Source of the DNA: Acidobacteriota bacterium
GTDB taxonomy: Bacteria > Acidobacteriota > Thermoanaerobaculia > Thermoanaerobaculales > Thermoanaerobaculaceae
NCBI GenBank assembly: GCA_003158745.1
Contig: PMLC01000028.1
Span: 11,487 to 69,134, forward strand
Direction: 5' to 3'
DNA length: 57,648 nucleotides
In this document: positions 41,374 to 56,407 of the stretch, in pieces
Numbering within the stretch: the first letter of the stretch is position 1
How the letters are laid out: each line of letters starts with the position of its first letter
Program-made: the position numbers and the translations under genes
Notes under the pieces: generated by a model
Database searches by the model: none
What the model saw: only the letters and a program-made list of their open reading frames with translations
What the model was told of the DNA's origin: nothing

Positions 41374-41449
41374 GCGCCGGTGGCTCAATGGATAGAGCAC
41401 CTGACTTCGGATCAGGTGGTTGGGGGTTCGAGTCCCTCCCGGCGCGCCA
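41374..41449 (+). tRNA. tRNA-Arg (anticodon TCG)
   Basis: 76 nt folded by hand: acceptor GCGCCGG/CCGGCGC, D-arm GCTC/GAGC, anticodon stem CCTGA/TCAGG with loop CTTCGGA (TCG), T-arm with TTCGAGT, discriminator G and encoded CCA. It reads CGA codons. The DISARM locus begins 217 nt downstream, and tRNA 3' ends are common integration sites, but no second attachment copy was found. Confidence 0.95.
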
Positions 41450-41625: not shown

Positions 41626-41647
41626 GGCTCCACTCAACGAGTGGGCC
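41626..41647 (+). promoter_or_regulatory. Hairpin/dyad just upstream of drmD
   Basis: CCACTC-AAC-GAGTGG (41630-41644) is a perfect dyad, extended by GGC/GCC with one bulged T. It ends about 19 nt before the drmD GTG and could be an operator or leader hairpin. Confidence 0.35.
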
Positions 41648-41665
41648 GGTGCTACGCTCTGAAAC

Positions 41666-44600
41666 GTGGCTACAGATTCTGCCGGTCACCTCACCACCAG
41701 CGCCCCAGAGCAAGGTCAGCTCGTCACCGTGCGCCAGCGGCGCTTCGTGGCGACCGATGTTGCTGAGTCGGCGCTGCCCGACAGCGCCCTGACGCCCGTC
41801 GCCAACAGCACCGAGCACCTGGTCACCTTGTCGTGCCTTGAGGATGATGCCCTCGGCGAGGAGCTGCAGGTTATCTGGGAGCTCGAGCCGGGCGCGCGGG
41901 TGCTGGAGAAGGTCGACCTGCCGCCGAACCCGACCACGTTCGACGACCCGGCACGACTTGACGCCTTCCTCGACGCCGTCCGCTGGGGCGCGGCCTCGTC
42001 CGCAGACGTGAAGGCGCTCCAGGCGCCTTTCCGCAGCGGCATCGACATCGAGGACTACCAGCTTGACCCGGTCGTGCGGGCCATCCGCATGCCGCGCGCC
42101 AACCTGCTCGTCGCCGACGACGTAGGCCTCGGCAAGACCATCGAGGCCGGCCTCGTCATCCTCGAGCTGATCCTGCGCCACCGCGCCCGGCGCGTCCTCA
42201 TCGCCTGTCCCTCGAGCCTCCAGCTCCAGTGGCGGGACCAGATGCGCGACAAGTTCGGCCTCGACTTTCGCATCGTCGACGCCGAGCTCCTCCGCCGCCT
42301 GCGGCGGGAGCGCGGCATCCACACCAACCCGTGGAAGCACTTCCCGCGACTGATCACCTCGATCGACTTCCTCAAGCGCGAGCGCCCGCTGCGACTGTTC
42401 CGCGAGACACTGCCGAGCGAGGGTGAAGCGATCTACCCGCGCCGTTACGACGTGCTCATCGTCGACGAGGCACACAACTGCGCCCCGTCCGGCCGCGGTA
42501 AGTACGCCACCGACTCCCAACGCACCCAGGCGCTCAGGACCATCACGCCGCACTTCGAGCACAAGCTCTTCCTCACCGCTACGCCGCACAACGGCTATGT
42601 CGAGAGCTTCTCGGCGCTGTTGGAGCTGCTCGACAACCAGCGCTTCGCCCGCGGCACGGTGCCGGACCGCAAGCAGCTCGATGCGGTCATGGTCCGCCGC
42701 CTCAAGTCCGAGCTGAAGGACTTCGCCGGCGCGCCGAAGTTCCCGGAGCGCACCCTCGAGGCCATCGAGGTCGACTACCCTACCGAGGAGAAGGCGGCCC
42801 ACGCCGCCCTCCGACGCTACGCCGAGCTGCGCGGCAAAGGCACCCGCGATACCGCCGAGCGGATCGCCACCGAGTTCGTCCTGCTGACCCTAAAGAAGCA
42901 CCTGTTCTCCAGCCCCGCCGCGTTCGCCTCGACGCTCGCCCGCCACGAGGAGACCCTGAAGGCCGCGCGACACCGCAAGGCCGAGAAGGCGCCGACGGGC
43001 AGCGTGCTGCGGCGCCAGATCGCCGACCTCGACGAGGAGTACGCCGACGACCACGAGGCCGAGGAGGCTACCGGTAGCACGGTCGACAGCGCGACCCGGC
43101 TGTTTCATGACGCGACCGACGAGGAAGCCCGGCTGCTCCGCGAGATGCGCCAGTGGGCTGAGCGCGCCTCGGTTGGGCCAGACGCCAAGGCGCGGATGCT
43201 CTTCGACTGGTTGAAGACGACCGTCCGCCCCGGTGGTACCTGGGCCGACACCCGCGTCATCATCTTCACCGAGTACCGGACGACCCAGAAGTGGCTGCAG
43301 GAACGCCTCGCCTACGAAGGGTTCGGGGGCGAGCGCGTGACGCTCCTCTACGGCGGCATGGACCCCAAGCAGCGCGAGGCGGTGAAGGCGGCCTTCCAGT
43401 ACGATCCGAAGCAGAGCCCCGTGCGCATCCTCCTCGCCACCGACGCGGCCTCCGAGGGCATCGACCTGCAGAACTACTGCTCCCGGCTCGTCCACTACGA
43501 GATCCCATGGAACCCGAACCGCATGGAGCAACGCAACGGCCGCATCGACCGACACGGCCAGCGTGCCGATAAAGTCGAGATCTACCACTTCGTCGGCCGT
43601 GGGTTCCAGGAACGTGAGCGCACCGGGGCATACGTCAAGCCAGGCGACCTCGAGGGGGACCTGGAATTCCTGCTCCGCGCCGCCAAGAAGGTCCAGTCGA
43701 TCCGCGAGGACCTCGGCAAGGTCGGCCCCGTAATCGCTGAGCAGGTGGAGGACGCCATGCTCGGCCGGCGCCACTCTCTCGACACGGACCGCGCCGAGAG
43801 CGAGGCGGCGCCGGTCCGACGGATGCTCAAGTTCGAGCGCGACCTGCGGGAGCAGATCCAGCGCCTGCGCGACCAGCTCGACGAGACGAAGCGCGACCTA
43901 CGCCTGTCACCGAGCAACGTGCTGCGGGTTGTCACGACCGCCCTCGACCTCGCGGGACAGCCCCCGCTCGTACCAGTCACGGGTGTGGCCGCCATCGACG
44001 GCCCGGTGTTCCAGCTGCCCGCGCTCACCGGGAGCTGGCAGTACTGCGCGGAGGGGCTCCGACACCCGCACACCGGCGCGGTCCGCCCCCTCGTTTTCGA
44101 CCACGACCTCGCGGCGGGGCGCGACGACGTGGTGCTCGCCCACCTCAACCACCACCTCGTGCAGATGTCCCTCCGGCTCCTGCGCGCCGAGGTCTGGTCG
44201 ACAGAGGGGAAGCGCAAGCTCCAGCGGGTGACCGCGCGCCTAGTCCCCGACGAGGCGCTGCGCGACCCCGCCCTGATCGCCTACGCACGGCTCGTGGTGA
44301 TCGGCGGCGACCGGCACCGCCTCCACGAGGAGATCATCCAGGCCGGCGGGGTGCTGCGCGAGGGGCGCTTCGCCGCCATGAACGTCGGCGAGACGGAGCG
44401 TGCCCTTGCGGCTGCCTTGCCAGAGGCGCCACCAGCTTCCATGCGTCAGACGCTCCTGGCCCTCTACCCCAAGCACCGCGACGCGCTCGCCCGTGCCATC
44501 GAGGCCCGCATGCGCGACCGCACAAGCGGCCTCCAGAAGCTGCTTGCCGAGCGGCGCGACAAGGAGGTCGCCGACATCCGGAAAATCCTCGAGGAGCTGC

Positions 44601-44845
44601 GCCGCCTCATCGCCGAGAAGGTCGACGACCCCGGCCTCAAGCAGATGACCTTTGAGGGGTGGGGCGACCCGGAGCGCGAGCAACTCGAGCGCAACATGGA
44701 CGCCCTGCGCGCTCGCCTGCGCGAGATCCCGGCCGAGATCGACCGCGAGACCGCCGCCGCCGCCGCCCGGTTCTCCAACCTCCAACCCCGCCTGTTCCCG
44801 GTCGCGGTGACGTTCCTCATCCCCCGCCGTCTTGCGAGAGCCTAA
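41666..44845 (+). CDS. drmD: DISARM SNF2-like helicase DrmD
   Basis: 1059 residues from GTG 41666. Superfamily 2 motifs: Walker A DDVGLGKT (152-159), DEAH at 267-270, FLTATPHNGY, then the C-terminal helicase half with IIFTEYRTTQKWL, LLATDAASEGIDLQ and QRNGRIDRHGQ. This Snf2/RapA-like layout matches DrmD, the helicase that marks class 1 DISARM. A long charged C-terminal tail (about 690-1059) contains coiled stretches. Only 4 nt separate it from the methyltransferase start. DISARM restricts incoming phage DNA. Confidence 0.9.
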   Translation: MATDSAGHLTTSAPEQGQLVTVRQRRFVATDVAESALPDSALTPVANSTEHLVTLSCLEDDALGEELQVIWELEPGARVLEKVDLPPNPTTFDDPARLDAFLDAVRWGAASSADVKALQAPFRSGIDIEDYQLDPVVRAIRMPRANLLVADDVGLGKTIEAGLVILELILRHRARRVLIACPSSLQLQWRDQMRDKFGLDFRIVDAELLRRLRRERGIHTNPWKHFPRLITSIDFLKRERPLRLFRETLPSEGEAIYPRRYDVLIVDEAHNCAPSGRGKYATDSQRTQALRTITPHFEHKLFLTATPHNGYVESFSALLELLDNQRFARGTVPDRKQLDAVMVRRLKSELKDFAGAPKFPERTLEAIEVDYPTEEKAAHAALRRYAELRGKGTRDTAERIATEFVLLTLKKHLFSSPAAFASTLARHEETLKAARHRKAEKAPTGSVLRRQIADLDEEYADDHEAEEATGSTVDSATRLFHDATDEEARLLREMRQWAERASVGPDAKARMLFDWLKTTVRPGGTWADTRVIIFTEYRTTQKWLQERLAYEGFGGERVTLLYGGMDPKQREAVKAAFQYDPKQSPVRILLATDAASEGIDLQNYCSRLVHYEIPWNPNRMEQRNGRIDRHGQRADKVEIYHFVGRGFQERERTGAYVKPGDLEGDLEFLLRAAKKVQSIREDLGKVGPVIAEQVEDAMLGRRHSLDTDRAESEAAPVRRMLKFERDLREQIQRLRDQLDETKRDLRLSPSNVLRVVTTALDLAGQPPLVPVTGVAAIDGPVFQLPALTGSWQYCAEGLRHPHTGAVRPLVFDHDLAAGRDDVVLAHLNHHLVQMSLRLLRAEVWSTEGKRKLQRVTARLVPDEALRDPALIAYARLVVIGGDRHRLHEEIIQAGGVLREGRFAAMNVGETERALAAALPEAPPASMRQTLLALYPKHRDALARAIEARMRDRTSGLQKLLAERRDKEVADIRKILEELRRLIAEKVDDPGLKQMTFEGWGDPEREQLERNMDALRARLREIPAEIDRETAAAAARFSNLQPRLFPVAVTFLIPRRLARA

Positions 44846-44849
44846 GCCC

Positions 44850-45230
44850 ATGTCGATCGCCCGCCACCACGCCGAATGGCTCTCCCTCGTCGAGGTCTCT
44901 GGCCCGTTCCTGAGCCTCCCGGTCCTCATGAGGGCCTACCCGCAGGGCCTCGAGGACATCGACCCGGCCGTCGCCCAGCAGCTCCGCACCGCGTACGAGG
45001 AGTGGCACGAGGACCTCGACCACCGCACTCGCGCCGCCGCCACCCACCAGGCGTGGATCGCCTACGTGCTGCGCTTCGTCCTCGAGTTCCCGGACAGCGC
45101 CATCGCCGAAGGGCAGGCCATCCCGGACACGCTCAAGGCCACCGTCCCCGAGTACGGCGAGACGCTCCGTCCGACCCACGTCGTGCGTGACACTTCCGAC
45201 GGCACGCCGCGCATGCTCGTGGTCGCCTAG
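44850..45230 (+). CDS. drmMI: DISARM methyltransferase DrmMI, N-terminal fragment before in-frame TAG
   Basis: 126 codons from ATG 44850, ending at an amber codon (45228-45230) in the middle of what should be one gene. Reading on in the same frame continues at once with PPEQNLERLVLEKRWKASPA and then the 45297 ORF, with no other stop to 48893. In related proteins as I recall them the position before PP is Tyr, so TAC to TAG is the simplest explanation. The fragment is N-terminal to the methyltransferase core. It should be read with the next entry as one broken gene. Confidence 0.8.
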   Translation: MSIARHHAEWLSLVEVSGPFLSLPVLMRAYPQGLEDIDPAVAQQLRTAYEEWHEDLDHRTRAAATHQAWIAYVLRFVLEFPDSAIAEGQAIPDTLKATVPEYGETLRPTHVVRDTSDGTPRMLVVA

Positions 45231-45296
45231 CCGCCCGAGCAGAACCTCGAGCGACTCGTCCTCGAAAAGCGCTGGAAGGCGTCGCCGGCCACGCGC

Positions 45297-48200
45297 ATGA
45301 CCGAGCTGCTGCATGCCACCGGGATACGCCTCGGCCTCATCACGAACGGGGAGCAATGGATGCTCGTCGACGCCCCGCGCGACGACACAGCCGGCTTCAC
45401 CTCGTGGTACGCCGAGCTGTGGCTCGAGGAGCGCCTCACCTTGCGCGCCTTCCGCTCGCTCCTTGGCGCCCGGCGCTTCTTCGGCGTCGCCGCGAACGAC
45501 ACCCTCGACGCCCTCCTGGCCGAGAGCGCGGAGAACCAGCAGGAGGTCACCGACCAGCTCGGCTACCAGGTGCGCCGCGCGGTCGAGGTGCTCGTCGATG
45601 CCCTCGACCGCGCAGACCAGGACCGTGGCCGAAAGCTCCTCGCCGGCGTCCCAGAGGCCGAGATCTACGAGGCCGCGCTCACCGTGATGATGCGGCTTGT
45701 CTTTCTATTCTGCGCCGAGGAGCGCGACCTTCTGCTTCTGGGCGACCCGCTCTTCGACCAGCACTACGCGGCGTCGCCGCTCCGCGAGCAGCTCCGGCAG
45801 GCTGCCGACCAGCACGGCGAGGAGATCCTCGAGCGCCGCTACGACGCCTGGTCCCGACTGCTAGCAACCTTCCGTGCCGTCCATGGTGGCGTGCGCCACG
45901 AGCGCATGACGATTCCGCCGTACGGTGGCCGGCTGTTCGACCCTGACCGCTTCCCGTTCCTCGAGGGGCGCACGCACGGCACGGCTTGGCGAGCCTCCGC
46001 CGCCGACCCGCTCCCGGTGAGCAACCGTACGGTCCTGCACCTCCTCGAAGCACTCCAGCTCCTGCAAGTGAAGGCGCCAGGCGGTGGCCCGGTGGAGGCG
46101 CGGCGGCTCTCGTTCCGCGCCCTTGACATCGAGCAGGTTGGGCACGTCTACGAGGGGCTCCTCGACCACACCGCCAAGCGCGCCACGGAGGTGACGCTCA
46201 GCCTCGCCGGCAGTCGCGACAAGACCCGCGACTTCGAGCCCGAGGTGCCGCTCTCCCAGCTCGAAGCCCTTGCCACAAGAGATCGTCCCGCGCTGATCGA
46301 CTACCTCACCGAGGAGACCCACCGTTCCTCGACGGCGATCGAGAAGCAGCTCAACCGTCCGCCGACACCCGAGGACGAGCAGCGACTCCAGGTGGCCTGT
46401 GGTGGTGGCGCTGAGGGCAGGGCGCTCCTGGAGCGCATGCGACCATTCGCGGGGCTGGTCCGCGTCGACAGCTTCGGCCACCCTATGGTCATCCATGGCG
46501 GTAGCGTCTATGTAACCGAGGGTACCGACCGCCGCGCCACCGGCACGCAGTACACCCCGCGCAGCCTGACGGAGCCGATCGTCCAGCACGCCCTCGAGCC
46601 GCTCGTGTACGAGGGGCCGGCCGAGGGCAAGCCCCGCGTCGAGTGGAACCTACGGTCCCCCCAAGAGCTACTGGCGCTCGCCATCTGCGACTTCGCGTGC
46701 GGGTCAGGTGCATTTCTCGTTCAAGCGTGTCGCTACCTCGCCGCGCGGCTGCTCGAAGCCTGGGAGGCAATCGAGCGCCAGCACCCCTGCCTGGTCCGCA
46801 TCACCCCAGAAGGTGAGCTATCTCAGGGTCTCCCCGAGGAGCGGCTGATTCCCAAGGACCCCGACGAGCGCCTGACCTACGCCATGCGCCTCGTCGCCCA
46901 GCGCTGTCTCTACGGCGTCGACGTTAACCCGCTCGCGGTCGAGATGGCCAAGCTCTCCATGTGGCTGCTCACCCTCGCCAAGGAGAGGCCGTTCACCTTC
47001 CTCGACCACAGCATCCGCTGCGGCGACTCGCTCCTTGGCATCACGAGCCTCGACCAACTCAAGCGGTTCAGCCTGGCCGAAGGACCGGTGCAGCGGACGA
47101 TCTCGCAGCAGGTGTCCTTCGACGATCTAATCGACCGTGCGGTGGCCGCCCGCCTTCGGATCGAGTCGATGGACGGCGACACGATCGAGCACGTCGCGGC
47201 GCAGAAGGAGCTACTCCGCGAGGCCGAAGAGCAACTGGGCCGGTTAAAGGGAGCGGCGGACCAACTTGTTGCGGCGGAAATTGGCGACGGAAGTCGGGAG
47301 GATGCTATTAGGATGGCGAATTTGATCCTCCTACCACACGATTCGGCAGGAACTCGTATTGACGCAGTCCCACCGCGAAGCAGCCGTCGACCTTTCCATT
47401 GGCCGCTGGAGTTTCCTGAAGTCGTGGTGGCGCGAGGAGGATTCAGCGCCTTCGTTGGGAACCCTCCGTTCATGGGGGGGAGACTCATCGGTCGCTCCCT
47501 GGGGATGGACTATCAGAACTACCTGCGACTGGTCCGAGAGAACGTTAAGGGTTCTCCAGATCTCTGCGGGTACTTCTTCCTGAGGGGATTCCGTTTGTGT
47601 AAGGACAATGGAGTCCTTGGGCTCATCGCAACTAAGTCAATCGCTGAAACCGGCTCCCGCGTAGTTTCGCTAGATCGGATCATTAGCAAAGGTGGCACGA
47701 TCTTCCGCGCTCTCTCCCGCATGCCATGGCCAGGAACAGCAGCTGTTGTCGTTGCTTGTCTTTGGATCGTACGCGGTCGCTGGCTATCACCAAGACAACT
47801 CGACCATCACGAGGTGAGCGAGATTAATGGTGGGCTTACTCCTGTGGACTTGGCTGGACGGCCGCATCGCCTGAAGGCTCTAGCGGGACGATACTCGCAG
47901 GGCCAAGACACAATGGGGAGGGGTTTTGAGCTTGCTGAGGACGAGGTAGATGACCTGATTGGGCGAAACCCGAAACTGAGAGACGTGATCTTTCCCCTCT
48001 TCAATGGCCAAGACCTTAACACCATGGCTGAGCTGAAACCCTATAGATGGGTGATCTACTTCCGAGACTGGCCGGAACACCGAGCCCGCGAATACCCAGA
48101 GGCTTTTCAGCGGGTTCATGATCTAGTAAAGCCCTACCGAGATTCCCTCACCGGCCAGATCCACCAACGGTGTTTCTGGAAGTTCTGGGATCTTCGACCT

Positions 48201-48893
48201 CGCCTGATGAAGGAGGTCGAGGAACACGACTTCCTCCTGGCATCTCCAATTGTCACAAAGTACCTGACCTTCCGGCGAGTGCCGTCGAGCAACATCTACA
48301 ATATGAAGACCAAGCTTTACTTTCTTTACGACTGGTGGCACTTCGGTTTACTGCAGAGTTCCTTCCACCAAGACTGGGCGACCTGGTTATGCGGGACTAT
48401 TGGCGAGAAGGGTCTGAACTACTCAACGTCGGACGCACTCGAGACATGGCCATTTCCAGACGTGCGCGCAAGCGCTGAGGCCCTCAAGGAGCTTGGTCGG
48501 CTTGGAGATGCGTACCACAGGTTTCGCGAAGACCTAATGCACGAACTCGAAGAGGGGCCAACTCGGCTATACAACCGGTTCCATGACCCCGATGAGCAGT
48601 TGCCCGCTGTTATCGCTTGTCGCCAGCTCCACCAGCAGCTCGACCAAGCAGTTGCCGCCGCGTATGGCTGGCCAGACCTTGAGGTGCAGCATGGTTTTGA
48701 GGAAACGAAACTCGGGCTCCGCTTCACGGTTACGGAGACTATCCGAGCCGAAGCGCGACGTCGGCTCGTTGCGCTCAACCACGAACGGTACAGCGCCGAG
48801 CTTCGACAGGGACTCCACACGAAGGGAAGCGCGAGCAAGTCCGGTGCCGGAAAGAAGAAGAGAGCCGATGAGGTCGCCGACCTTTTCTCGTGA
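45297..48893 (+). CDS. drmMI: DISARM adenine-specific DNA methyltransferase DrmMI, main part
   Basis: 1198 residues if translation restarts at ATG 45297, 66 nt after the TAG. The N6-adenine methyltransferase motifs are intact: motif I DFACGSGAFLV (about 465-475) and motif IV NPPF (722-725). DrmMI marks host DNA so that DISARM spares it. From about 47,240 to the stop the base composition drops to about 42-57% GC in the lines counted, against roughly 60-70% before it and higher still in drmA; this covers the end of the catalytic core and the probable target-recognition part. Whether the restart product is active is unknown; readthrough or sequencing error are alternatives. Confidence 0.85.
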   Translation: MTELLHATGIRLGLITNGEQWMLVDAPRDDTAGFTSWYAELWLEERLTLRAFRSLLGARRFFGVAANDTLDALLAESAENQQEVTDQLGYQVRRAVEVLVDALDRADQDRGRKLLAGVPEAEIYEAALTVMMRLVFLFCAEERDLLLLGDPLFDQHYAASPLREQLRQAADQHGEEILERRYDAWSRLLATFRAVHGGVRHERMTIPPYGGRLFDPDRFPFLEGRTHGTAWRASAADPLPVSNRTVLHLLEALQLLQVKAPGGGPVEARRLSFRALDIEQVGHVYEGLLDHTAKRATEVTLSLAGSRDKTRDFEPEVPLSQLEALATRDRPALIDYLTEETHRSSTAIEKQLNRPPTPEDEQRLQVACGGGAEGRALLERMRPFAGLVRVDSFGHPMVIHGGSVYVTEGTDRRATGTQYTPRSLTEPIVQHALEPLVYEGPAEGKPRVEWNLRSPQELLALAICDFACGSGAFLVQACRYLAARLLEAWEAIERQHPCLVRITPEGELSQGLPEERLIPKDPDERLTYAMRLVAQRCLYGVDVNPLAVEMAKLSMWLLTLAKERPFTFLDHSIRCGDSLLGITSLDQLKRFSLAEGPVQRTISQQVSFDDLIDRAVAARLRIESMDGDTIEHVAAQKELLREAEEQLGRLKGAADQLVAAEIGDGSREDAIRMANLILLPHDSAGTRIDAVPPRSSRRPFHWPLEFPEVVVARGGFSAFVGNPPFMGGRLIGRSLGMDYQNYLRLVRENVKGSPDLCGYFFLRGFRLCKDNGVLGLIATKSIAETGSRVVSLDRIISKGGTIFRALSRMPWPGTAAVVVACLWIVRGRWLSPRQLDHHEVSEINGGLTPVDLAGRPHRLKALAGRYSQGQDTMGRGFELAEDEVDDLIGRNPKLRDVIFPLFNGQDLNTMAELKPYRWVIYFRDWPEHRAREYPEAFQRVHDLVKPYRDSLTGQIHQRCFWKFWDLRPRLMKEVEEHDFLLASPIVTKYLTFRRVPSSNIYNMKTKLYFLYDWWHFGLLQSSFHQDWATWLCGTIGEKGLNYSTSDALETWPFPDVRASAEALKELGRLGDAYHRFREDLMHELEEGPTRLYNRFHDPDEQLPAVIACRQLHQQLDQAVAAAYGWPDLEVQHGFEETKLGLRFTVTETIRAEARRRLVALNHERYSAELRQGLHTKGSASKSGAGKKKRADEVADLFS

Positions 48894-49012
48894 TACCCCC
48901 TCTTCGGGGGAGAAGCCACCTGCTACGATGGCCCCGGTAGCGACTTCGACATCGTTCTGGCGTGGCGAAGTTGCGATGATCGCTAGTGCCGAGACCAGAA
49001 TGGAACACGGCA

Positions 49013-52000
49013 ATGCCTGACATCGTCACCAGCCCACCCTCCGACCTCGAGCTGCGCTCGCGCCTCATCGAGTTGTCAGTAAAGGATCTCCTCGGCCCGG
49101 CCGGCGGCGAGCGGGAGGAGATCGCCGAGCGGAACGTCCGCGACCGTTACCTCGTCGGAGTCCTCGCCCCAGCCACCTGGACGCACACCGGCACGGCCAA
49201 GGGCACCAGGGTGAAGGAGGCAACCCCCCTGTCCGGCGGCGGGGAGGAAGACGACGAGGAGACGCCGGCCATCCCCGACGAGCTCGCCGCGGGCGGCGGC
49301 GACAGCCTCGACGACGGCACGACCGACCAGGATGTTCCGGTCACCCAGGCGCACTTCCCGTCGTCGATCGGGCTCACGTTCTCAGTCAGCGCCGACGCCA
49401 CGTCCATCGAGGTCGAGGCGCGGTGGGGCCAGTACCTGCGCGAGGTGAAGGAGGAGCAGATCAACGAGCGGACCGGTAAGCCGTTCCGCGTCTGGCGTCG
49501 GTTCCCCCGTGGCGGGACCATCACGATCCCGCTCACGTCTGGCCCGATTAGATCCCAGATGGTTGATGCCGAGTGTCCCGCCGTCGAGGTGCAGGGGCGT
49601 GTGCGTAAGCGGGAGCACAGCACGGTCGTCACGCTCTTCCTCGTGAACGGCCAGGAACTGTCCCGCCCGCGGGACGCGAGCTTCGTCTTCCAGCCGCTGC
49701 TGCGCGTGATAGCACCCGGCGGCGCGGCGGCCTTCGTGCGCAAGGCGCCGCTCCGCTCGGCCGACGCAATCGACCCGGCCATCCGCCTCGAGGAGGACCG
49801 CCTGGAGCTGCTCTACCGGCGGCACGTCGAGTTCGCAGTCGGCCACGGCGTCGGCGTCCACGCCGAGGTGAGCGCCGAGGCGCCCGACCGCGCGACGGCC
49901 GTCGAGACCCGGATCGTCCCGCACTACGAGGTGCCGCGCAGCACCCCACCGACCGCCGCCGACACCGCGATCAACCCGGCGTTCGCCGCGCTCGACGGCC
50001 TCGTGCTCGACATGAAGGAGCTGGCGGCGAGGCCCGGCGCCGAGGTGCGCGACAAGCTCGCGCCGCTGACCGCCGCCTACTGCGCCTGGATCAACGCCGA
50101 GGAGAAGCTCGCGAAGGAGACCGCACTCGGCCCGCTCGCCGACGCTGCCCGCTCCGCCCTTGACGCCGCCCGCAGGAACCTCGAGCGCATCGAGGAGGGG
50201 CTGGACCTGCTCGCCTCGGACCCGCAGGCCGCGCGGGCGTTCGCGTTCATGAACGAGGCGATGTGGCTGCAGCGCACCCACTCGATCTACTCGGAGAGGG
50301 TGCGGCGCGGCGAGAGCCCCGACTTCGCCACCGAGGTCGACGTCCCGGCCAACCGCACCTGGTACCCGTTCCAGATCGCCTTCATCCTGCTGAACCTGCC
50401 GGGGCTCACGCGCCTCGACCACCCCGACCGGGGCCCCGACCAGCTCGCGACCGCGGACCTGCTCTTCTTCCCCACGGGCGGCGGCAAGACCGAGGCGTAC
50501 CTCGGCCTCGCGGCGTACACCATGGCGATCCGCCGCCTGCAGGGGCCGATCGGCGGGCGCGGCGGCGAGCCCGGTCTCGCGGTGCTCATGCGCTACACCC
50601 TGCGCCTCCTCACAATCCAGCAGTTCCAGCGCGCCGCCGCCCTCCTCTGCGCCTGCGAGGTGATTCGCCGCCGTGAGGCAGACAAGGGCAAGGCCACCTG
50701 GGGCAGCGAGCCGTTCCGCATCGGGCTCTGGGTCGGGCAGAAGACGACGCCGAACTGGACGGAGGACGCCGCCGAGGCGATCCAGCAGCACCGCGGCAAC
50801 CAGGCCGGCTTCTCCGCGGGCGCCGGCACGCCCTACCAGCTCACGGCCTGCCCGTGGTGTGGCCAGGAGATCAAGGCGGGGCGCGACCTGCAAGCAACGC
50901 ACGGCCCGAGTCAGGTCGGGCGCACGTTCACGTACTGCGGCGACCCGGCCGGCGCGTGCCCGTTCAGCCGGCGCCAGGCGCCCGACGAGGGGCTGCCCGT
51001 CGTGGTCGTCGACGAGGAGATCTACCGGCGCCTGCCGTCCATGCTCATCGCCACCGTCGATAAGTTCGCCCAGCTGCCGTGGCGCGGCGAGGTGGGGATG
51101 CTCTTCGGCCAAGTCGACGGCCGCTGCGAGCGGCACGGGTTCCGCTCCCCGGAGATCGAGGACTCCGGCACCCACCCGAAGGCCGGCGCTCTACCGCCCG
51201 CGAAGACCGTACCATTCGGCCCGCTGCGCCCGCCCGACCTCATTATCCAGGACGAGCTGCACCTCATCAGCGGCCCGCTCGGAAGCCTCGTGGGGCTCTA
51301 CGAGACCGCCGTCGACCGGCTGTGCAGCTGGGAGGTGGACGGGAAGGTCGTCCGACCGAAGGTCGTGGCCTCGACCGCGACGATCCGCAACGCGCCCGCC
51401 CAGGTCCATGCCCTGTTCCTCCGCCGGGTGAACGTCTTCCCGCCCCAGGGGCTCGACGTGCGCGACAGCTTCTTCTCGGTGCAGCGTGCGCCGAGCGCCG
51501 AGGAGCCGGGCCGCTACTACCTCGGCATCTGCGCGCCAGGTCGCCGCCTCAAGGCCGCGCTCATCCGCGTCTACGTCGCGTTCCTCTGCGCGGCGCAGAC
51601 GCTCTACGAGACGCACGGCCAGCAGGTCGACCCGTGGATGACGCTCGTCGGCTACTTCAACTCCATCCGCGAGCTGGGCGGGATGCGCCGCCTGGTCGAC
51701 GACGACGTCGCGAGCCGCGCCAAGAAGATGGACGCCCGCGGGCTCGCCAAGCGGTTCCTCACACCGAGCCGCGACCTCGAGGAGCTGACCTCGCGCATCC
51801 GCTCCGAGGACATCCCGTATATCCTCGACCGGCTGGAGGCGGTGTTCGACCCGGCGACGGAGTGGAAGGCCGGAAAGCCCGACGAGCGAGCCGACGAGCG
51901 CGCGAAGACGCGCCGCCGCCTCGCCGTGCTGCTCGCCACGAACATGATCTCCGTCGGCGTCGACGTGAAGCGCCTAGGGCTCATGGTGGTCGGGGGCCAG

Positions 52001-52660
52001 CCGAAGTCGACTGCCGAGTACATCCAGGCGACCAGCCGCGTCGGCCGCAGCCGGCCGGGCATCGTCTGCACCGTCTACAACTGGGCGCGGCCTCGCGACC
52101 TCTCGCATTTCGAGCGGTTCGAGCACTACCACGCGACGTTCTACAAGCACGTCGAGGCGCTGTCGGTCACGCCGTTTTCGACGGGTGCCATCAAGCGCGG
52201 CCTCGCCGGGCTCCTCGTCGGTATGCTCCGCCAGCGCGGCACCGAGATGAACCGCAACGACGCCGCGGGCCGCATCCAGAAGACCGACCCCGCGGTCGAC
52301 GAGATCATCGAGCACATCGCCAAGCGCGCGAGCCTCGTCGGGACGACCGCCGCCGGGGACGAGTGCCGAGCGCAGCTCCGCCACAAGGTCGACCTCTGGA
52401 GCGCCGAGGCGCAGAACCGCGCCGGCGGCCGCACGCTCACGTTCGACGCCTCCCGGGGGAAGGACCGCGGCACCTCCGTGGCGCTCCTCCAGCGCCCGGA
52501 CCTCGAGCACTGGGAGGAGTTCACCTGCCTCAACTCCCTCCGGGAGGTGGAGCCGACGGTGAAGCTCATCGCCCTTGACGCCGGCGGCCTGGACGAGGAC
52601 GCAGCGTCGGACCGCGCCGCGCCGCCCGCGGCCGATCCCGTCACCCCGGAGCAGCCATGA
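49013..52660 (+). CDS. drmA: DISARM helicase DrmA
   Basis: 1215 residues from ATG 49013. The N-terminal part (to about 450) has no familiar domain. The SF2 helicase part has Walker A PTGGGKTEAY (about 487-496), the DExH-like QDELH (about 746-750), KVVASTATIRN and the late helicase segment ATNMISVGVDVKRLG with QATSRVGRSRPG. A zinc-like cluster (CPWC near 613, CGDPAGAC) is inserted between the motifs. DrmA with DrmB is the core of all DISARM systems. It overlaps drmB by ATGA. Confidence 0.92.
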   Translation: MPDIVTSPPSDLELRSRLIELSVKDLLGPAGGEREEIAERNVRDRYLVGVLAPATWTHTGTAKGTRVKEATPLSGGGEEDDEETPAIPDELAAGGGDSLDDGTTDQDVPVTQAHFPSSIGLTFSVSADATSIEVEARWGQYLREVKEEQINERTGKPFRVWRRFPRGGTITIPLTSGPIRSQMVDAECPAVEVQGRVRKREHSTVVTLFLVNGQELSRPRDASFVFQPLLRVIAPGGAAAFVRKAPLRSADAIDPAIRLEEDRLELLYRRHVEFAVGHGVGVHAEVSAEAPDRATAVETRIVPHYEVPRSTPPTAADTAINPAFAALDGLVLDMKELAARPGAEVRDKLAPLTAAYCAWINAEEKLAKETALGPLADAARSALDAARRNLERIEEGLDLLASDPQAARAFAFMNEAMWLQRTHSIYSERVRRGESPDFATEVDVPANRTWYPFQIAFILLNLPGLTRLDHPDRGPDQLATADLLFFPTGGGKTEAYLGLAAYTMAIRRLQGPIGGRGGEPGLAVLMRYTLRLLTIQQFQRAAALLCACEVIRRREADKGKATWGSEPFRIGLWVGQKTTPNWTEDAAEAIQQHRGNQAGFSAGAGTPYQLTACPWCGQEIKAGRDLQATHGPSQVGRTFTYCGDPAGACPFSRRQAPDEGLPVVVVDEEIYRRLPSMLIATVDKFAQLPWRGEVGMLFGQVDGRCERHGFRSPEIEDSGTHPKAGALPPAKTVPFGPLRPPDLIIQDELHLISGPLGSLVGLYETAVDRLCSWEVDGKVVRPKVVASTATIRNAPAQVHALFLRRVNVFPPQGLDVRDSFFSVQRAPSAEEPGRYYLGICAPGRRLKAALIRVYVAFLCAAQTLYETHGQQVDPWMTLVGYFNSIRELGGMRRLVDDDVASRAKKMDARGLAKRFLTPSRDLEELTSRIRSEDIPYILDRLEAVFDPATEWKAGKPDERADERAKTRRRLAVLLATNMISVGVDVKRLGLMVVGGQPKSTAEYIQATSRVGRSRPGIVCTVYNWARPRDLSHFERFEHYHATFYKHVEALSVTPFSTGAIKRGLAGLLVGMLRQRGTEMNRNDAAGRIQKTDPAVDEIIEHIAKRASLVGTTAAGDECRAQLRHKVDLWSAEAQNRAGGRTLTFDASRGKDRGTSVALLQRPDLEHWEEFTCLNSLREVEPTVKLIALDAGGLDEDAASDRAAPPAADPVTPEQP

Positions 52661-54519
52661 GCACGTCCCACCTCCTCCGTAAGTCCGAGGTCGGCGAACT
52701 GCGCCCCAGCCAGCTCCTCACGACGTTCGGCGTCGGCTCCCTCATCGACCTGCCGAACCTCTCCGTGCTCGTCATGGGCCTCGACGACTGGCAGACCGCG
52801 AGCGCGACGGAGATCGGCGAGCCGCGCCTCCTGCGCTCCGTGCAGCGGGCGCTCGGCGCCCAGGTCACGAAGCTCCTCACGCCGCCGCGCGGGCCGGAGA
52901 CGCCGGGGCGGACCAACTGGTTCGACGAGTCGCACCAGATCGGCGTGCCGGTGGCGCCGTTCCCGCGCTGGATGGTGTGCTCGAAGTGCCGGCTCCTCGC
53001 GCCGCTGTCGTCGGGTTTCTTTAGCCCGCAGCAACCGGCCTACCGGCCGCACCAGACCCGGTACGTGCACACGAACTGCCCGAAGCCGGGCAAGCCGCCG
53101 ACGGCGGTGCCCGCGCGCTTCGTCGTCGCCTGCGAGAAGGGCCACCTCGACGACTTCCCGTGGGCCGCGTACGCCCACCGCGGCCAAGGCACCTGCACCG
53201 GCCCCCTCGAGCTGTACGAGTGGGGGGCGACCGGCGAGGCCGCCGACATCGAGGTGCACTGCCGCACGTGCGACCGGAAGCGGCGCATGGCCGAGGCGTT
53301 CGGCAAGGAGAACCAGGAGAACCTGCCGGCCTGCACGGGGCGCCGACCCTACCTGCGCGACCACCAGCCAGGGGGCTGCGACGAGCCGCACGTCCGCGCG
53401 ATGCTCCAGGGCGCCTCAGGGCTCTGGTACTCGGTCCTCGTGTCGGTGCTGTCCATGCCCGTGCAGAAGGCGGATGCCCTCGCGCAGCTCGTCGAGGAGG
53501 AATGGCCGACCCTTGAGAAGGCGACGAGTCGCGAGGTCCTCGCGGCGTTCCGGCAGATCGGGCAGCTCAAGGCGTTTGCCAAGTACACCGACGACGAAGT
53601 GTGGGCCGCGATTGAGCGGCACCGCCAGCCGGCGCCCGAGGCGGAGACGAACCCGACCGACCTCAAGGGGCCGGAGTGGCAGGTCTTCTCCAACCCCACA
53701 GCCGTCCCGCGCAGCCGCGACCTGAAGTTGCGGGCGGTGGACCCGCCCCCGAGCTTCATCCAGCAGCTCGAGCGAGTCGTGGTCGTCGACAGCCTGCGCG
53801 AGGTCCGGGCGCTCATCGGCTTCACCCGCATCCAGTCGCCGCGCGACTTCGACTCGCCCCTCGACCTCCCCGAGAGCACCCGCGCCCCGCTGTCGCGTCA
53901 GCACCCGACCTGGGTGCCGGCGTCCGAGACCCTCGGCGAGGGCATCTTCCTCCAGTTCTCTGAGGCGGCCATCGCGACCTGGGTGAAGTCGACCGCGGCC
54001 CGGAAGCGAGAAGTTGACCTGCGGACCTCCCACGAGCGCTGGCGGGCCAAGCACAACCTCGACCCATCCGTCGGCTTCCCGGGCATGCGCTACGTCCTGC
54101 TCCACAGCCTGTCGCACGCGCTGATCCGCGAGTTATCGATGGAGTGCGGCTACACGACGGCTTCCATCGGGGAACGGATCTACTGCAGCAACCCCGGCGA
54201 GGGAGGGCCGACGGCCGGCATCTTGATCTACACGGCAGCGCCCGACAGCGAGGGGACACTCGGCGGACTCTCGGCGCTCGGCGCAACCGACCGCCTCGAA
54301 GGGCTCCTGCAGCAGGCGCTGGAGCGCTCGCGGTACTGCTCCTCCGACCCGCTCTGCGCGGAGCACCAGCCGCAAATCGACGACAGCCTCCACGCGGCGG
54401 CCTGCCACGCCTGCTTGTTCCTGCCGGAGACGTCGTGCGAGCGGGGCAACAAATTCCTCGACCGCGCGGTCCTGGTCGCTACGTTCGAACAGCAGGGTCT
54501 CGAGTTCTTCCCGAGCTGA
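52657..54519 (+). CDS. drmB: DISARM DUF1998 protein DrmB
   Basis: 620 residues. The start RKSEVGELRPSQLLTTFGVG is characteristic of DrmB. Cys pairs CSKC, CEKG, CRTC and the C-terminal HAAACHACLFLPETSCERGN typical of DUF1998 are present. DrmB forms a complex with DrmA that senses or engages DNA. Its ATG overlaps the drmA stop, implying 1:1 translation. Confidence 0.92.
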   Translation: MSTSHLLRKSEVGELRPSQLLTTFGVGSLIDLPNLSVLVMGLDDWQTASATEIGEPRLLRSVQRALGAQVTKLLTPPRGPETPGRTNWFDESHQIGVPVAPFPRWMVCSKCRLLAPLSSGFFSPQQPAYRPHQTRYVHTNCPKPGKPPTAVPARFVVACEKGHLDDFPWAAYAHRGQGTCTGPLELYEWGATGEAADIEVHCRTCDRKRRMAEAFGKENQENLPACTGRRPYLRDHQPGGCDEPHVRAMLQGASGLWYSVLVSVLSMPVQKADALAQLVEEEWPTLEKATSREVLAAFRQIGQLKAFAKYTDDEVWAAIERHRQPAPEAETNPTDLKGPEWQVFSNPTAVPRSRDLKLRAVDPPPSFIQQLERVVVVDSLREVRALIGFTRIQSPRDFDSPLDLPESTRAPLSRQHPTWVPASETLGEGIFLQFSEAAIATWVKSTAARKREVDLRTSHERWRAKHNLDPSVGFPGMRYVLLHSLSHALIRELSMECGYTTASIGERIYCSNPGEGGPTAGILIYTAAPDSEGTLGGLSALGATDRLEGLLQQALERSRYCSSDPLCAEHQPQIDDSLHAAACHACLFLPETSCERGNKFLDRAVLVATFEQQGLEFFPS

Positions 54520-54521
54520 CC

Positions 54522-55313
54522 ATGGACCATCCAGCGAAACGCCTCGCCACTGCCGCAACGAAGCTCGCGGCGGAGCTGCCGCCCGAGCTGGTCGAGGTCG
54601 CCTCCGAGGTGCTTCTCTCTTCGGCCGACCTCGCTGCCGCGAAGCGGGGAATCGCCGAGCGCGTCGCGCACCCGCAGTTCCGCCGGACCATTGCCAGGTT
54701 CATCACGAATTGCGAGGGCTTCGGGGTACTGCCGCCCGTCGCGATCGGTGCGGCGCTCCTCACCGCGGCTGCGTCCGAGCAGGCGAGCCGCGCTCGCCAA
54801 GAGGTCGAGGTCGCCTGGACCGGACCTCACAGCGAGGCGGTCGCGTTCCGGCGCACCGAGCAGGCGATCCTGCAGATCCTCGACTCAGCCAAGTTGCGTA
54901 TAACGCTCGTTTCGTACGCCGTCTACGCGATCCCACGGGTCCGCGAGGCGCTTGTTCACGCGGCCAAACGGGGGGTGCGCATCACCGTGATTCTCGAGAC
55001 CCCCGACCACGTGAGCGGGCAGGGCGCCTACGACACCCTGCGCGCAATGGGCGCCGAGGTGGCGGCCTGCTCGAGCGTGTACTACTGGCCGCAGGAGAAG
55101 CGCCCGAGAGAGGGTGGCAAGACCGGCATCCTCCACGTGAAGTGCGTCGCCGCCGACGGGCATTGGCTCTTCGTGTCTAGCGCTAACCTCACGGAGTACG
55201 CCTTCTCGATCAACATGGAGCTCGGCGTGCTCATGACCGGCGGCCCGGTTCCCACTCAGGTTGAGTCGTTGTTTGACTCCCTGATCGCTACCGGAACGCT
55301 GACCAGCCTCTGA
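54522..55313 (+). CDS. drmC: DISARM phospholipase-D-like protein DrmC
   Basis: 263 residues from ATG 54522, 2 nt after the drmB stop. A PLD-type fold with one HKD motif (His205, Lys207, Asp212: HVKCVAAD) followed by SSANLTEYAF. Earlier, ILDSAKLRITLVSYAVY and GVRITVILETPD form the matching beta strands. One HKD per chain implies a dimer, as in Nuc-type nucleases. In published DISARM work drmC was dispensable for activity in one host. It closes the five-gene set. Confidence 0.9.
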   Translation: MDHPAKRLATAATKLAAELPPELVEVASEVLLSSADLAAAKRGIAERVAHPQFRRTIARFITNCEGFGVLPPVAIGAALLTAAASEQASRARQEVEVAWTGPHSEAVAFRRTEQAILQILDSAKLRITLVSYAVYAIPRVREALVHAAKRGVRITVILETPDHVSGQGAYDTLRAMGAEVAACSSVYYWPQEKRPREGGKTGILHVKCVAADGHWLFVSSANLTEYAFSINMELGVLMTGGPVPTQVESLFDSLIATGTLTSL

Positions 55314-55402: not shown

Positions 55403-56407
55403 ATGCGTGTGCCAGATCTCGCCAAGGCGCTGGCTGATAGAGTCCTCGCCATCGCTTCGGAAAAGGGACTCTCAGAGGTTATCGACCTGGATGCCCTGGC
55501 AGTCGAGCTCGGGGAATCTGACAGCCGGAAAGTCAGCGACGCCGGCATGCTGCTCCAGTCTCGCGGGATGATCGCCTTCGTGGCTGACAACGCAAACGTA
55601 GTCCGGGCGAAGCCCGAGTTACTGCTTGAGGGGATTCAGCTAGTGGGCGCGCAGAGAACTGAAGGAACAAGCCAAGATGGCGAGGTGGAGACCGAACTGA
55701 TTAAGCTTCGCGAGGCGGCCGCCCGGCTTCCCCTGGGGGAGTGGGCAGCGGTAGACCGCGTCCGTGGAATGCTCAAGATGATCATCGCCAACGGGTGGGG
55801 GGCGGAGAGCCACTACTTATCAGATTGGAAACGCATCTCATTCGAGTTTGGCGTTGGGGTGGACTTTGAAAGCGGGTTTGCGCTCTACAAGCAAGAGCTC
55901 CTTAACCTCATTGACACAATGCTCCAGGAGAAACGCCTCTTTCGTCCTGCGCGCCGCGACGATGGCGGCAGACAAAAGGACGGTGGCGAGCGACAAGGAA
56001 CTGAAAACTATGTCGATCTCGGTCGGATTGGAGCAATGAAGGCGCTCACGTCCAGCAGTTTCGACCTCACCAGGTTGGTTGCAATGTGCGAAGAACTGAA
56101 TCGGTGTTGGCGGTCCGGTTGCGTCATCGCTGTTGCGATGCTTGTTAGGGCGATTATCGACCACGTCCCACCCATCTTCGGATTCGGTACGTTCGCGGAG
56201 GTTGTGGACAGATATCAAGGGTCCAGGTCATTCAAGGAACTGATGACGGAGTTGCAGGCCCAATCACGCAAGGTGGCGGATCAATACCTGCATGTACGCA
56301 TCCGTCCCAAAGAAGATGTCCCCACCCCAGTGGGAGTAGATTCCCGGAAGCCCCTCGATGCGCTACTGGGCGAAGCCATCAGACTATTGACGGTAAACAA
56401 GCGCTGA
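55403..56407 (+). CDS. Uncharacterised protein next to DISARM
   Basis: 334 residues. The N-terminal 80 are helical and winged-helix-like; a middle segment (about 85-185) contains ISFEFGVGVDFESGFALYKQ; the C-terminal 120 carry AMLVRAIIDHVPPIFGFGTF and SRKVADQYLHVRIRPKED, a helical domain that I recognise from hypothetical proteins in defence islands but cannot name. Base composition is lower in GC than the chromosome outside the island. Its own promoter is probable (89-nt gap after drmC). Function unknown; a defence role is only guilt by association. Confidence 0.6.
   Translation: MRVPDLAKALADRVLAIASEKGLSEVIDLDALAVELGESDSRKVSDAGMLLQSRGMIAFVADNANVVRAKPELLLEGIQLVGAQRTEGTSQDGEVETELIKLREAAARLPLGEWAAVDRVRGMLKMIIANGWGAESHYLSDWKRISFEFGVGVDFESGFALYKQELLNLIDTMLQEKRLFRPARRDDGGRQKDGGERQGTENYVDLGRIGAMKALTSSSFDLTRLVAMCEELNRCWRSGCVIAVAMLVRAIIDHVPPIFGFGTFAEVVDRYQGSRSFKELMTELQAQSRKVADQYLHVRIRPKEDVPTPVGVDSRKPLDALLGEAIRLLTVNKR

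Follow-up and report, generated by a model that had tools for sequence, protein, structure and literature searches.

Five co-oriented genes on the forward strand of the window, the whole 57,648-nt stretch of DNA that was analysed, form what is almost certainly a class 1 DISARM operon in which the assembly carries an in-frame stop within drmMI, judging from profile, motif and structure matches of the translated sequence. Class 1 DISARM is an already known kind of system, and the locus is a further member of that described family. The genome is a 3.74 Mb draft of metagenome type in 163 contigs.

The translated operon proteins were compared with the profiles of NCBIfam, PADLOC and Pfam. The first gene, drmD (41666–44845, +), starts with GTG and encodes a SNF2-like helicase of 1059 aa (NF038317, 1361 bits; PDLC02621, 1435 bits) with the helicase motifs DDVGLGKT at residue 151, DEAH at 267 and GRIDRHGQ at 625. 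It is followed by drmMI in two parts. The 5' part (44850–45230, +; 126 aa) holds the first half of an MmeI/DrdV-like N-terminal domain (PDLC02643 positions 4–129, 117 bits) and is closed by the in-frame TAG at 45228–45230, while the 3' part (45231–48893, +) is open in the same frame, has its first usable start at ATG 45297 (1198 aa; PDLC02643 positions 154–1339, 1484 bits) and contains an Eco57I/MmeI-type adenine methylase domain together with a target-recognition domain (Pfam PF07669, PF20473 and PF20466). Both methylase motifs, FACGSG and NPPF, are kept. The short-form YprA-type SF2 helicase encoded by drmA (48986–52660, +) is 1224 aa long from GTG 48986, with ATG 49013 as an alternative start (NF038325, 1398 bits; 7s9v_A, E = 0), and carries PTGGGKT at 496, QDELH at 755 and SRVGRS at 1017. 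The DUF1998/MrfA Zn-binding protein of drmB (52657–54519, +; 620 aa) has its cysteine motif (NF038324, 703 bits; PF09369; 7s9v_B, E = 2.5e-177), and the phospholipase D-like nuclease of drmC (54522–55313, +; 263 aa) has both HxK...D and SSAN (NF038319, 199 bits; PDLC02605, 218 bits; PF13091). The mechanical reading frame of drmC starts at 54144, inside drmB, and its likely start is ATG 54522.

Operon identity and gene order

All four NCBIfam scores lie well over the model cut-offs (610 bits for DISARM_DrmD, 950 for DISARM_DrmAS, 240 for DrmB_fam and 133 for DISARM_DrmC_I). No DrmMI model occurred among the NCBIfam matches, and the assignment of DrmMI is that of PADLOC. The sole PDB matches of the DrmA and DrmB proteins are the solved DrmA and DrmB of Serratia (7s9v). 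With profile scores of ~200–1500 bits across nearly full length, chance is excluded as the source of these sequence matches to the family. A preliminary description of the locus had identified it as class 1 DISARM, and was right to do so because both the profile scores and the sole structure matches are those of DISARM. It had also proposed a search against DISARM models, with the placing of drmA or drmB in other families as the outcome that would speak against it; that search was run and returned the DISARM models for both, far over threshold.

The core features of DISARM are all present, namely a YprA-type DrmA, a separate DUF1998 protein DrmB encoded next to drmA, and a phospholipase D-like DrmC 3' of drmB. 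The SNF2-like DrmD and an adenine methylase, DrmMI, encoded within the operon are the features of class 1. An intact, full-length drmMI is not found here, which concerns function and not family membership. PADLOC profiles revealed neither of the class 2 markers, DrmE and the cytosine methylase DrmMII, among the operon genes and the two genes that follow. Fusion of the helicase to DUF1998 is the architecture that distinguishes other YprA-type systems (PMC12458937). Given that DUF1998 lies on a separate gene here and that the best profiles are those of DISARM, identity with Druantia, Dpd or ARMADA is unlikely.

The order drmD, drmMI, drmA, drmB, drmC on one strand stands as first described, and the motifs of two SF2 helicases, an adenine methyltransferase, DUF1998 and PLD that had been seen by eye were all located in the proteins or by Pfam. 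Two points of that account needed amendment. The TAG that splits drmMI had been missed; drmD, drmA, drmB and drmC are all open. It also had the genes joined by overlaps or tiny gaps throughout, which is correct for drmD/drmMI (4-nt gap), drmA/drmB (4-nt overlap) and drmB/drmC (2-nt gap), whereas drmMI and drmA are separated by 92 nt to the GTG start of drmA, or 119 nt to the ATG. The first of these junctions is counted to the true start of drmMI at ATG 44850; the listed drmMI reading frame begins at ATG 45297, 451 nt past drmD.

The in-frame stop in drmMI

In an alignment with 27 DrmMI relatives the register is unbroken across the TAG. At this position nine of them, the nearest relatives included (L021, L022, L023, L025, L028, L030, L038, L040 and L045), have tyrosine, and the others His, Val, Glu, Gln, Trp, Phe or Leu; a stop occurs in 0 of 27. 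The remainder of the 1347-codon frame shows no further lesion, and the change is therefore either recent or an error in a metagenome-type draft assembly. The interrupted copy is the only DrmMI of the genome.

There is good reason to think that the codon works as an ordinary stop. Within the window, four genes with Pfam support (peptidase M16, HisRS, an RpiB/DeoC fusion and the ketopantoate reductase PanE) end in TAG, prfA, which encodes RF1, is present in the genome, and a tRNA-like pattern search combined with ARAGORN found no CUA-anticodon tRNA in the genome. The CUA pattern occurred at six places, fewer than the reversed-pattern control, and ARAGORN called a tRNA at only one of these, which is tRNA-Glu. 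Recoding or suppression of TAG was therefore rejected, and from these features of the genome the drmMI TAG is expected to terminate translation.

Translation might resume at ATG 45297, 67 nt past the TAG, and give a DrmMI that is active though shortened at its N-terminus, or both pieces might combine as a split enzyme. The 1198 aa downstream do retain the target-recognition domain along with the two methylase motifs, as either version would require. We nevertheless consider resumption or a split enzyme quite improbable, given that the N-terminal part is fused in one frame in 27 of 27 aligned relatives, that the Met of ATG 45297 falls within a conserved structural motif, SPATRM, and that the purine-rich GGAAGG ~19 nt upstream of this ATG is farther off than a normal ribosome site would be. 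For the N-terminal region of the protein from a Lautropia mirabilis MAG (L023), a structure model (mean pLDDT 64, ~90 for most of residues 50–170) points the same way, as it places the TAG site at the predicted end of a core strand in a domain resembling the N-terminal part of DrdV, so that a protein begun at 45297 would contain half a domain.

Broken methylase genes and other DISARM loci

The same gene order is found in ~20 independent DrmMI-bearing loci from several phyla, on plasmids as well. The loci of Acidithiobacillus sp. YTS05 (L021), the Lautropia mirabilis MAG and an Anaerolineae MAG (L025) share the five genes, their order and their strand with the present operon at identities of 58–61% for DrmD, 47–49% for DrmMI and ~51% for DrmA, and differ from it in that their drmMI is one open frame. 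DrmA and DrmB are homologous across nearly full length to those of the class 1 system of Serratia sp. SCBI (7s9v, 7s9w), and the trigger-loop region, the Walker motif, the base-touching Val and the DrmB cysteines are all present here. The Serratia operon has an extra cytosine methylase gene (PMC9142583), none of which was seen here, and the stop in drmMI is a further difference. DrmMI is also like the type IIG/IIL enzymes MmeI and DrdV in its MmeI methylase and target-recognition domains and in the predicted DrdV-like fold of its N-terminal part. In contrast to these enzymes, the ExK nuclease residues are absent at this place across the aligned DrmMI family, which fits a role of DrmMI as a methylase only.

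A class 1 DISARM on the complete plasmid of Acidibrevibacterium fodinaquatile (L084:9551-14360) likewise has a broken drmMI with drmD, drmA and drmB open, though there an IS5 transposase gene interrupts the coding sequence where the present drmMI has one stop codon. The drmMI of Cutibacterium acnes DSM 16379 is broken by a 32.5-kb insertion, an island in place of the stop seen here (PMC7365801). Frame breaks in drmMI also occur in loci L042, L043, L045 and L046. By a hand count of the fetched loci, some of them partial and the first set chosen by DrmMI, frames are broken in ~7 of 52 drmMI, 4 of 46 drmD and 2 of 50 drmA genes, and drmB breaks occur too. The counts for drmMI, drmD and drmA are not convincingly different and do not show a preferential loss of drmMI in DISARM. 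On a plasmid of Synechocystis sp. B12 (L083), all five genes of a class 1 DISARM are frame-broken, and this is either a decayed locus or poor sequence.

The TAG may stem from an error in consensus or assembly; the organism would then have an intact drmMI and a fully ordinary class 1 DISARM, a reading to which we give a substantial but minority chance. The draft is in 163 contigs, and one substituted base in a frame free of other lesions, at a codon that in the nearest relatives is one base from TAG, is what such an error would look like. Isolated errors are, however, rare in polished short-read assemblies, which counts against this reading, and so do the genuine interruptions of drmMI elsewhere, by IS5 on the Acidibrevibacterium plasmid and by the insertion in C. 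acnes (PMC7365801). On balance we take the stop to be more probably real than not.

The operon could also be a decaying remnant that has lost its function. The stop itself would suit such a remnant, and decayed class 1 DISARM is known, as in L083 with five of five genes broken. This seems unlikely when drmD, drmA, drmB and drmC are open, with intact motifs and normal codon-position composition. The nearest DrmMI relatives, at ~50% identity, are too distant for a selection test.

Predicted consequences for the DISARM mechanism

Published work on the Serratia proteins has shown that DrmAB is held off by a loop of DrmA and is triggered by unmodified DNA with a single-stranded 5' overhang, after which it translocates; methylation lowers DrmAB activity, DrmC is dispensable, and V1296 of DrmA touches a DNA base (PMC9142583). 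The equivalent of V1296 is conserved here as the Val of REVEP, a motif that starts at DrmA residue 1186, and on the evidence of their sequences DrmA and DrmB retain what such a mechanism requires. By homology, DrmAB would load on the unmodified single-stranded 5' overhang DNA of an incoming phage, translocate with ATP, and either block the phage DNA or destroy it with DrmC or other nucleases, while DrmMI would mark host DNA through adenine methylation.

The single TAG would cut DrmMI after residue 126. If translation stops there, no full-length methylase is made, and self-marking by this DISARM is thus probably lost. The locus may still act in defence, an activity that the drmMI stop makes doubtful, and the methylase, and perhaps the whole DISARM system, may be non-working in this genome. 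It appears to us very improbable that a real, fixed stop has left a natural class 1 DISARM without a methylase, or with an N-truncated one, which defends its host without harming it, with DrmMI self-marking dispensable.

The wider interest of the locus lies in the broken drmMI only. The DrmAB structures published so far do not settle whether a DISARM system must have a methylase of its own in order to spare the host. If the breaks in L046, the Acidibrevibacterium plasmid, C. acnes DSM 16379 and the present drmMI are genuine, and if expression of the DrmAB core continues, these loci would be natural tests of that requirement.

Genomic setting, origin and composition

As first noted, the operon stands behind tRNA-Arg: ARAGORN placed a tRNA-Arg (TCG) at 41374–41449 (+), 216 nt before the drmD GTG. 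The tRNA has orthologues in five congeners, whose homology to the window ends at or within 1 nt of its 3' end; genomes G002, G004 and G008 have a common sequence behind their tRNA-Arg, and in G000 this lies on another contig, C127. An insertion behind tRNA-Arg would fit this arrangement. Neither the window downstream nor the flank of the C127 sequence yielded a second tRNA 3' end, and the scanned genes included no integrase. The window runs to the end of its contig, and the far end of an insertion may be missing. The upstream genes are ordinary chromosomal ones (SpoIIE-type phosphatases, peptidase M16, HisRS, aldehyde dehydrogenase, FUR and gamma-glutamyltransferase) and match the genus, which argues against a contaminant contig.

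The operon is thus a DISARM locus in a genus where eight other sampled genomes show no match of DrmMI grade. The nearest DrmMI relatives are found in Acidithiobacillus, a Lautropia MAG, Ktedonobacteria and others, and the distance of these taxa, together with the lack of a comparable match in the eight congeners, suggests that the operon was probably acquired horizontally.

Two further genes lie between drmC and the contig end. Directly behind drmC, 55403–56407 encodes a 334-aa protein and is lower in GC than its surroundings; the protein matched no profile in PADLOC, Pfam, NCBIfam or PHROG, and neither 60 related genomes nor the surroundings of the ~20 DrmMI-bearing loci yielded a relative. 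An ankyrin-repeat protein is encoded at the contig end (56598–57596). Neither has a defence profile in PADLOC, and both were excluded from the system.

Within drmMI, GC3 drops from 0.84–0.94 to 0.53–0.67 at about residue 780, across the target-recognition half of the gene (47190–48893). Most relatives show a fall of GC3 in the same half of their drmMI, and local recombination as the source of the GC dip at 47–49 kb was rejected in favor of a family trait. Repeated swapping of recognition domains may underlie the shared drop.

A sigma-70 scan found no promoter at ~41630–41665. By eye, a short palindrome, CCACTCAACGAGTGG, and behind it a TACGCT hexamer stand there directly ahead of the GTG of drmD, and the two look like a putative operator and the -10 box of a leaderless promoter.
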